A stretch of DNA of 28,638 bases from an uncultured bacterium (GTDB taxonomy: Bacteria > Hydrogenedentota > Hydrogenedentia > Hydrogenedentales > CAILVY01): the NCBI GenBank assembly GCA_937951485.1, contig CALEDJ010000022.1, forward strand, positions 1-28,638, read 5' to 3'. Position 1 is the first letter of the stretch, and every line of letters starts with the position of its first letter. Below, piece by piece: positions 2,995-5,375 of the stretch. Under the pieces are notes generated by a model. It was not told the origin of the DNA and did not search any database. It was given only the letters and a program-made list of their open reading frames with translations. A program made the translations under genes and the position numbers.

Positions 2995-3027
2995 CGCGCC
3001 GATCCGCAAGAACATCGAATCGGCGCG
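2995..3027. repeat. 9-bp perfect inverted repeat (hairpin) next to the triple repeat
   Basis: CGCGCCGAT (2995-3003) and ATCGGCGCG (3019-3027) enclose a 15-base loop. It lies 14 bp from the first of the three large hairpins and upstream of dtd. On the minus strand it could end a transcript coming from the triple-repeat region, but no T-run follows. The rest of 2823-3040 shows nothing I can name. Confidence 0.6.
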
Positions 3028-3040
3028 TTGAATATTAGAA

Positions 3041-3138
3041 AGAGGCGGGTCTGTGCAGCATGTTGGCTGCAGGTACTCTTGGGGAAGGAGTGACGTGAGG
3101 CAGAATTCTAACCGTGCGCTCCACAGACCCGAACCTCT
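3041..3138. repeat. Stem-and-core hairpin, copy 1
   Basis: A conserved 66-bp core (3057-3122) is enclosed by a stem. The arms are 3041-3055 and 3122-3138, with a perfect CGGGTCTGTG/CACAGACCCG match and further AGAGG/CCTCT pairing past a 2-base bulge. Inside the core, CTGC/GCAG and ACTC/GAGT can form nested helices. It could be a structured RNA, a single-stranded DNA hairpin, or an insert in a pre-existing palindrome. Both strands are open in one frame across all three copies. Confidence 0.8.
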
Positions 3139-3160
3139 TCAGGGAAGCATTGTTAAAAGA

Positions 3161-3267
3161 CGGGCGAGCAGCGGTCACGCGCAGCATGCTGGCTGCAGGT
3201 ATTCTTGGGGAAGGAGTGACGTGAGGCAGAACATTGACCGTGCGCTCCGCGTGTCCGCTACTCGCCG
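3161..3267. repeat. Stem-and-core hairpin, copy 2
   Basis: The core is at 3183-3248 and differs from copies 1 and 3 at a few positions. The arms, 3161-3181 and 3248-3267, pair over about 20 bases with two mismatches and one single-base bulge, yet their sequence is unrelated to the copy 1 stem. The core change ACTC to ATTC keeps pairing with GAGT through a U-G wobble if read as plus-strand RNA. One stem position (C opposite A) pairs only as minus-strand RNA (G-U). The transcribed strand is therefore unresolved. Confidence 0.8.
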
Positions 3268-3275
3268 AAGAAGGA

Positions 3276-3369
3276 AAAACGGGCCTGCAAAGCATGTTGG
3301 CTGCAGGTACTCTTGGGGAAGGAGTGACGTGAGGCAGAATTCTAACCGTGCGCTCCGCAGACCCGTTTT
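3276..3369. repeat. Stem-and-core hairpin, copy 3
   Basis: The core is at 3291-3356 and is identical to copy 1 over the part compared. The arms are AAAACGGGCCTGC (3276-3288) and GCAGACCCGTTTT (3357-3369), a 13-bp stem with one C-A mismatch that becomes a G-U pair in minus-strand RNA. The copy spacings, 126 and 108 bp, are multiples of three. A 126-codon minus-strand frame therefore reads [22 protein letters not shown]-like units three times; this is listed as an alternative, not a gene call. Confidence 0.8.
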
Positions 3370-3417
3370 GTAGAGGCTGATATGCTCTCTGGCTATGTCG
3401 TCTATAAGTATTCATGA

Positions 3418-4686
3418 CTACATGCTCAATGCCGCCACTTCGATAAATGGCGTTTCTATTACGCCGGAAGCGCCGTCCGGGATGACATTGATGTGCAGGA
3501 TGGATTTGCCGACAATGGAGACGCCCTCCGGCACCGGCAGTTCGTAGATGTGTTTCTCCTTGTTCTCGAAGACACGGGCGTCAATGTATCCCGTAAACAA
3601 CTGGTTCATGTGCTCATCAGAAACGAAGATGTGATATCCGCAGTGATTATCCTCAAAAGCGTCAGGACGCCACTCAAAAGTGATCGCATGCACCACATGT
3701 CGGCGCACATCCACCACGAAAACCTGTTCGGCGCGAATGCGCTCGCTGTGTGGGAAATTGGCCAGAAACATCCGTTCCGCCTGGGGATCGGAATGGAACC
3801 CCGACGCCCACGCCATAAGCGTATGTGCATCCACCGCCACTTTCCGGAGCGGTTTGCGACCGGGCATCAGTTCGACCTGTTCGCCACTGTGCAGCACCGT
3901 GAAGGTGCGTTCATTCTCGACTTGGACCGTTCCCTCCGCAACGGTAACGGTGGTTCCGCGGTCGGTCACATGAACATCGAAAACAGTGCCAAAAACCGTG
4001 ATGTCGCCTGAGGGGGTGAACACACGGAAATACGCGCGGTCGTTGTTCGACACTTTCAGCCATATGCGGCCGCGTTCCAGGCTCAATTCGCGCTCATGTT
4101 CCACTTTCAGGCGGGTATTTTCGTGGAGTTTCACATAACTGGGACCCACGAGGCCGATGATTAGGACTGCGTTTTCCGCCGTCTCAAAGCGTTCATCGGC
4201 CTGCACGACGGTCTGCACAAGCGTCGGCATGCGATCGGTGCTGTTTTCCCGGCTGCGCAGCACTTTGCCCTGTTGGTATGTGACCATGCCCACTTCCCGA
4301 TGCACAGGCGTATAGGTTTTCGGCCATGTGTACAATACGGCCGCTCCCACGAGCAGCACGGCGGCTGCGGCGAAAACGGGCATAATCACCCGAAAGAACA
4401 GTGACCGTCCCCGCTGCTTGGCGCGCAGCGTCACCTCGTGCGAGCGCCGGTAATCATGGTCCATTTCAGGCAAATGCGCCATCACCACCGGGGTTAAATC
4501 CTCACGCAGACGCTGTTCGCTTAAACTTTCAAAGAGCAGGGCCGCATTGGCCTTCTGGCGCTTCAGCAGCGCGTCGCACATGCGACATTCCGCAATATGC
4601 TGCTCCAGTATCACTTTTTCGGCCTGGCTGAGTTCGCCGTCAATATACGCTTGCAGAAAACTCTCTATTTGCGCGCACGATGCCAC
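3418..4686 (-). CDS. Membrane anti-sigma factor with FecR-like domain
   Basis: A 422-residue protein predicted to hold the neighbouring ECF sigma factor inactive at the inner membrane. The N-terminus is an anti-sigma zinc-finger helix bundle with H30-x3-C34-x2-C37 (HIAECRMC). One membrane segment lies at about 99-120. The periplasmic part has a FecR-like domain (about 150-260: VKLHENTRLKVE, FTPSGDITVFGTVFDVHV, VAEGTVQVE). A C-terminal beta-rich domain of about 120 residues is one I do not recognise. The start is a GTG at 4686 with GGAGG 10 bases upstream, and it overlaps the sigma gene by 22 bp. The overlap and order support co-expression as a sigma/anti-sigma pair. The signal sensed by the periplasmic part is unknown. 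Confidence 0.88.
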   Translation of the reverse strand: MASCAQIESFLQAYIDGELSQAEKVILEQHIAECRMCDALLKRQKANAALLFESLSEQRLREDLTPVVMAHLPEMDHDYRRSHEVTLRAKQRGRSLFFRVIMPVFAAAAVLLVGAAVLYTWPKTYTPVHREVGMVTYQQGKVLRSRENSTDRMPTLVQTVVQADERFETAENAVLIIGLVGPSYVKLHENTRLKVEHERELSLERGRIWLKVSNNDRAYFRVFTPSGDITVFGTVFDVHVTDRGTTVTVAEGTVQVENERTFTVLHSGEQVELMPGRKPLRKVAVDAHTLMAWASGFHSDPQAERMFLANFPHSERIRAEQVFVVDVRRHVVHAITFEWRPDAFEDNHCGYHIFVSDEHMNQLFTGYIDARVFENKEKHIYELPVPEGVSIVGKSILHINVIPDGASGVIETPFIEVAALSM

Positions 4687-5261
4687 TGGGCATCATCCTC
4701 CGTCGTGTCAGCATCTGCCAGCAATTCCCGCAACTGCCGGCCCGCCCGGTGCAGGATCCCCCGAATTTCATCGCGGGACTCGCCCGTAAAGCGGCTGATC
4801 TCTTCGTAACTCAACTCTTGCAGATAACGGAGAATCACCGGCAACCGGTACCGCTCCGGCAGCGCGTCAATCGCGCGCTGCACGTTTTCGTGCCGGTCAA
4901 TGATCTCCGATGTTCCCGTCGGTCCTTGCCTGGCGATTTCAAATGGCACCGTTCGGCGTTGCGGCAGCGGCGTCTCGTGCCGTAACCGCGGCCCGTTGCG
5001 CCGCAACCAGTTTGCCGCGGTGCGCGTGGTGATCTCCTTCAGCCAAACGCCGAACTTGTCCGGTTCCTTCAAATTGGGCATGCTCCGGTATGCCGCCCAG
5101 AACGCTTCCTGGGCCACATCCTCTGCTGCGTGGTAGCGCCCCACGTAGTAATAGGCGGTGGCATAGACGGCGCTCTGATAGCGTCGCACCAATTCGGCAA
5201 AGGCGTCCGTATCGCCCTGCAGGCACCGAAACACCAATTCCGCATCTTTTGCTGAATGCAT
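4665..5261 (-). CDS. ECF-type RNA polymerase sigma factor
   Basis: A 198-residue sigma-70 family protein of the extracytoplasmic-function type, which directs RNA polymerase to a small regulon. Region 2 covers about 20-90 (DAFAELVRRYQSAVYATAYYYVG, AAEDVAQEAFWAAYRSM). Region 4 is the C-terminal helix-turn-helix (ERYRLPVILRYLQELSYEEISRFTGESRDEIRGILHRAGRQLRELL). Region 3 is absent, as usual for ECFs. The start at 5261 is chosen over an ATG 13 codons upstream because GGGGAAGGA lies just before it. It overlaps the anti-sigma gene by 22 bp. A GGAAC/TCTA promoter motif about 80 bases upstream suggests autoregulation. Confidence 0.93.
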   Translation of the reverse strand: MHSAKDAELVFRCLQGDTDAFAELVRRYQSAVYATAYYYVGRYHAAEDVAQEAFWAAYRSMPNLKEPDKFGVWLKEITTRTAANWLRRNGPRLRHETPLPQRRTVPFEIARQGPTGTSEIIDRHENVQRAIDALPERYRLPVILRYLQELSYEEISRFTGESRDEIRGILHRAGRQLRELLADADTTEDDAQWHRARK

Positions 5262-5339
5262 GTTCCTTCCCCTGCTTTCTGCCTCATGGTTTCGGCGCAC
5301 TACTCAGATTCAACTGTTCGCCCTGTAAGTGGCGCGGAA

Positions 5340-5365
5340 TAGATTCATTTTGCATGCAATGTTCC
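5340..5365 (-). promoter_or_regulatory. Putative ECF-type promoter for the sigma gene
   Basis: Read on the minus strand, GGAAC (5365-5361) is followed after 17 bases by TCTA (5343-5340). This resembles the -35 GGAAC and TCT-containing -10 boxes of group-IV sigma promoters. It would leave a leader of about 79 bases before the sigma ATG. Assigned by motif resemblance only. Confidence 0.35.
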
Positions 5366-5375
5366 ATTTTGGAAC
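5361..5375. promoter_or_regulatory. Palindrome with two opposed GGAAC boxes
   Basis: GTTCCA-TTT-TGGAAC is a perfect 6-bp inverted repeat in the 230-bp divergent gap. Each arm provides a GGAAC box pointing outwards, one towards the sigma gene and one towards the CFI-box gene. It could equally be an operator, or a weak hairpin. Confidence 0.5.

Follow-up and report, generated by a model that had tools for sequence, protein, structure and literature searches.

What kind of element is formed by the three near-identical repeats that lie close together in this genome, and what might it do for the genes beside it? The window, by which we mean the whole 28,638-nucleotide stretch of DNA analysed here, carries an 86-nt repeat family (D1) with copies at 3046-3131, 3172-3257 and 3280-3365, spaced by 126 and 108 nucleotides. 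The initial annotation had described three copies of a conserved core enclosed by self-complementary arms, and these are real. The outer arms of each copy do pair within that copy, but to call the arms of different copies unrelated was too strong, as those of copies 1 and 3 are related to each other. Similarly, the 66-bp core repeat that it described is genuine but only part of a longer element, for which a covariance model (R1) spans about 104 nt per copy. In RNA order on the minus strand, the copies recognized by this model lie at 3270-3373 (110.8 bits), 3162-3265 (100.6 bits) and 3036-3139 (110.5 bits), each with a long stem (P1), a conserved core and a C-rich apical loop. The putative antisense core, UUCUGCCUCACGUCACUCCUUCCCCAAGAG in the first copy and near-invariant in relatives, occupies 3310-3339, 3202-3231 and 3076-3105, respectively, on the same strand (coordinates checked for all three). 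Fold z-scores of the copies range from -3.2 to -4.0 on the minus strand and from -1.7 to -3.9 on the plus strand. By comparison with its relatives, the array with its self-pairing arms is far beyond chance, because the core is kept in those genomes while the stems are rewritten with compensatory changes.

Each copy is predicted to fold, on the minus strand, with P1 (about 19 bp) as its outer stem; the interior consists of an asymmetric internal loop and a small hairpin whose loop is CUUCCCCAA. In alignment A1, the 29 copies aligned with MAFFT from which R1 was derived, 16 of the 19 P1 pairs change on both sides; in alignment A2, built from 96 matches with E no higher than 1 (a few being weak) and fitted to the model, all 19 (helices 1 and 2) do so. 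The covariation score of the whole structure in A2 is 0.473, against 0.171 (sd 0.007) shuffled and 0.10 or less when slid, and A1, though not fitted to the model, agrees with the picture of P1 covariation given by A2. Homologous cores thus recur in relatives with stems that covary as predicted, and the tandem structured RNA put forward in the initial annotation is upheld. On the minus strand, G-U pairs in P1 outnumber A-C mismatches by 209 to 58 (68 to 10 for the whole structure in a first subset), an excess indicating that the structured RNA is that of the minus strand. A plus-strand RNA would give the reverse ratio and is ruled out by the P1 counts. As the nested core pairs ACTC/GAGT and CTGC/GCAG hardly vary, covariation neither supports nor refutes pairing in the inner core. 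The bias in the core is opposite to that of P1 (18 G-U against 55 A-C), a sign that CTGC/GCAG may be no genuine helix.

The core search in relatives and the covariance model that had been proposed as checks both returned the element. With copy 1 as the blastn query and E up to 1 allowed, 53 of 60 genomes from the same order matched, mostly with short tandem arrays, and R1 detected the element in 53 of 68 Hydrogenedentota genomes, all from one order, with covariation in P1. The same model found it in none of 318 genomes from other phyla. Mostly there are one to four copies at one locus per genome, the exception being G010, the assembly of which is split; in the genome from which the window derives (4.5 Mb, 77 contigs), the repeats occur at the window locus only. 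This single locus differs from the many scattered copies per genome of REP/MITE-type repeats. That no named family matches was also borne out, with no match in 10 loci to Rfam 15 at the gathering threshold, while a permissive Rfam search of the window returned a best E of 1.2, off target. A literature search on RNA motifs of Hydrogenedentes found no earlier description. Tandem sRNAs with C/U-rich anti-Shine-Dalgarno loops are known from alphaproteobacteria as the CCUCCUCCC-motif or cuckoo sRNAs; unlike these, the present element has its own sequence, host and linkage and lacks an Rfam match. It appears to represent a new RNA family. Degenerate further copies are seen downstream of the last copy in four loci (L009, L007, L051 and L014), and three of these copies retain a stem but, CUUCCCC apart, little of the core.

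Directly upstream of the RNA, on the same strand, is a gene (3418-4686) for a FecR/zf-HC2 protein (Pfam FecR 1.5e-14, zf-HC2 4e-08), a probable anti-sigma regulator as judged also by synteny. It is preceded by a gene (4665-5261, minus strand, ATG at 5261) whose translation is a 198-residue ECF-type sigma factor (Sigma70_r2 5.8e-16, Sigma70_r4_2 1.5e-11). The order sigma, FecR, element, with all three co-directional, is kept in 19 of 20 relative loci, where the element lies about 55-200 bp past the FecR/zf-HC2 stop codon. In the remaining locus (L051 of G010) the contig ends, and its FecR end and a further copy are found on contig C584. The FecR gene is single-copy and adjoins the element wherever the contig reaches, close relatives of its product being found only within the phylum; in G039 and G040, which have the element with no FecR match, the contig ends there. 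The gene on the other side of the element varies among relative loci. After the last copy in the window, an inverted repeat (I2) with a short U-containing tail (2995-3027, minus strand) is a weak candidate for the transcript end; some relatives have clear terminators behind their last copy, on the strand of the RNA. A scan for sigma-70 promoters near the element gave nothing above chance. About 100 nt before the sigma start, at 5361-5375 on the minus strand, lies the palindrome GTTCCAAAATGGAAC, which is kept in most relatives and probably serves the operon as a promoter or operator.

In the window, the sigma leader reads UGAGGCAGAAAGCAGGGGAAGGAAC-AUG (5259-5286, minus strand). Two of its words, close ahead of the start codon, have perfect complements in the conserved core UUCUGCCUCACGUCACUCCUUCCCC. 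The Shine-Dalgarno region GGGGAAGGA (5264-5272, minus strand) is a perfect 9-bp complement of UCCUUCCCC in the core, and UGAGGCAGAA in the 5' region (5277-5286, minus strand) is a perfect 10-bp complement of UUCUGCCUCA. The strand of the RNA, its fixed link to a sigma-FecR operon and this complementarity to the sigma ribosome-binding site all go beyond the initial annotation. Of the 50 genomes that have both the element and a readable sigma leader, 23 carry a perfect 9-12 nt complement of the core no more than 60 nt from the sigma start, compared with one of 376 other ORFs (Fisher 4e-23, an optimistic value, since the genomes share ancestry and such tests overstate their independence). These 23 genomes span 16 genera and 9 of 11 families, and reversed and same-sense control cores match in none of the 50. 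In about half of the lineages, the complementarity is statistically exceptional. GGGGAAG precedes sigma in 21 of 50 genomes and 1 of 379 other ORFs, and is retained in some genomes where the rest of the Shine-Dalgarno sequence is poor (GGGGAAGTATCATG). The leader word GAGGCA is found in 13 of 27 genomes with a GCCUC core as against 1 of 20 with an ACCUC core, and in one genus (G022/G031) another stretch of the core matches the leader, GAAGGAGTG. The signature GAGGYA..GGGGAAG..ATG has a single site in the 4.5-Mb genome of the window, at the sigma start. Four genomes of genus g14 have sigma-FecR with the element undetectable, and in the leaders that were read from this genus GGGGAAG and GAGGCA are both absent.

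Other observations set bounds on the match. Ordered by duplex energy alone, the sigma site comes 3rd of 272 for the loop, 7th for the arm and 2nd for their sum, and the AAGGA part of the match is expected of any Shine-Dalgarno sequence, an 8-nt match of this kind being present in G037, which is without the element. Near the sigma start, a long complement is missing from roughly half of the element-bearing genomes, chiefly from much of family f5 and from families f6 and f7; where lineages lack the leader match, looking for a shifted target within the sigma gene gave only 6-8 nt matches. To judge from its retention in these lineages, the element must have other targets or functions.

We consider it about two-thirds probable that the element is a 3'-UTR antisense module repressing translation of the sigma gene of its own operon. 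The three hairpins would form the 3' untranslated end of the sigma-FecR transcript, with each long P1 stem presenting a near-invariant core antisense to the ribosome-binding site of that sigma gene. The apical loop CUUCCCC would pair with the Shine-Dalgarno GGGGAAG and the UUCUGCCUCA arm with UGAGGCAGAA just upstream of it, whether within one mRNA (in cis) or as a processed RNA acting in trans. By masking the ribosome-binding site, such pairing would reduce translation of sigma, providing a second, RNA-level negative feedback alongside the FecR-type anti-sigma protein, and extra hairpin copies may raise the dose. Because the order of the two words does not differ between the RNAs, a single hairpin could not engage both of them in one continuous duplex; two copies could divide the task, or the pairings could be mutually exclusive. 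We infer that the element is co-transcribed with the operon, that its core stays unpaired and accessible, that the result is repression and that its purpose is feedback. More tentatively, and rather doubtfully, a tandem-hairpin module feeding back on the ECF sigma of its own operon may be phylum-wide, with its wiring exchanged in evolution, such that one subclade has lost the match between 3' element and sigma leader, and there the loop of a convergent neighbouring sRNA (ACCGAGC) matches a leader word (GCTCGG) instead.

The nearest mechanistic precedents, by analogy, are icaR and OppZ/CarZ. In the icaR mRNA of Staphylococcus aureus, the C-rich 3'-UTR motif UCCCCUG is complementary to the Shine-Dalgarno sequence of the same mRNA, and the resulting duplex prevents translation and serves as an RNase III substrate (PMC3868564). 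The hairpins resemble icaR in that a C-rich motif of the predicted 3'-UTR, here CUUCCCC, is perfectly complementary to the Shine-Dalgarno region of a regulator encoded in the same operon. They differ in being tandem (mostly one to four) and covarying, in standing behind a two-gene sigma/anti-sigma operon and in belonging to another phylum. OppZ and CarZ of Vibrio cholerae are 3'-UTR-derived sRNAs that pair with the transcript of their own operon and repress its translation; they were shown by experiment to be RNase E products and act in trans (PMC7398697). Like them, the Hydrogenedentota element lies behind an operon and is complementary to the mRNA of that operon, as predicted from its sequence; unlike them, it is repeated and has a long covarying stem. 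The new family probably works as a variant of known 3'-UTR/5'-UTR pairing.

Among other readings, the one that survives best, unlikely as we consider it, is that the hairpins are processed or separately transcribed to give a trans-acting sRNA with a wider regulon, the C/U-rich loop of which blocks the ribosome-binding sites of several mRNAs, sigma being one. It would fit the retention of the element where the sigma match is lost and the generic anti-Shine-Dalgarno character of CUUCCCC, as well as a ACAGTTGAATC-like motif that stands just before the element in 17 of 53 loci and also before sigma (5307-5317, minus strand, in the sigma leader of the window). This motif, considered also as a candidate promoter element, has few sites per genome and is about six-fold over its reversed control in eight genomes, some of them picked for carrying it, in mixed contexts. 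Against a wider regulon, no second recurrent target emerged: other composite matches occur at about the frequency of the control pattern, and in the genome of the window the sigma site is the only one. Less probable again is a role as protein-binding or mRNA-protecting 3' hairpins, in which the core would be a recognition site for an RNA-binding protein or RNase, the stems would protect the operon mRNA and the complementarity to the sigma start would be secondary. Long stems, tandem copies and the U runs after some last copies are in keeping with such a role, but perfect 9-12 nt complements at the sigma start in 16 genera are not what it predicts. That a ligand-sensing, riboswitch-like RNA should occupy this 3' position we regard as highly improbable: near-invariant internal and apical loops on a variable stem recall one, yet the downstream genes vary among relatives, there is no Rfam family match and antisense pairing accounts for the core in many genomes. 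Single-stranded DNA hairpins, a mobile element inserting into palindromes and a repeat peptide, all raised initially and in keeping with tandem palindromic repeats and an open minus-strand frame in the window, can be set aside, as there is one fixed locus per genome, the stem asymmetry favours G-U rather than A-C, and among relatives 13 of 39 copy spacings are divisible by three, the proportion given by chance, so that no repeat peptide is encoded.

If the 3' hairpins do repress their own sigma gene, the sigma/anti-sigma principle would gain an RNA layer, in the form of feedback on an ECF sigma factor exerted through a 3'-UTR that is both repeated and structured. The element is conserved across a largely uncultured phylum, and the two-site base-pairing model is testable; its approximately 96 copies would be a large natural addition to the data on 3'-UTR/5'-UTR pairings, of which few are known.

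In families f4 and f5, a convergent putative sRNA gene ends beside the element. It has a -10-like TACAAT, a body of about 100 nt and an intrinsic terminator with the conserved loop GACCCCGAC. Examples are found at L012:302-430:+, L021:1682-1810:-, L046:5167-5295:-, L136:799-927:- and L138:934-1062:+, with about 10 more, and the gene had no Rfam match in the loci searched. Five f5 genomes (G006, G029, G042, G048 and G062) combine the sRNA loop ACCGAGC with GCTCGG in the sigma leader. Taken individually, these matches are near chance except in G062, where the match is 10 nt long; the pair is present in five of five genomes of this one clade and in none of nine other sRNA-bearing genomes.
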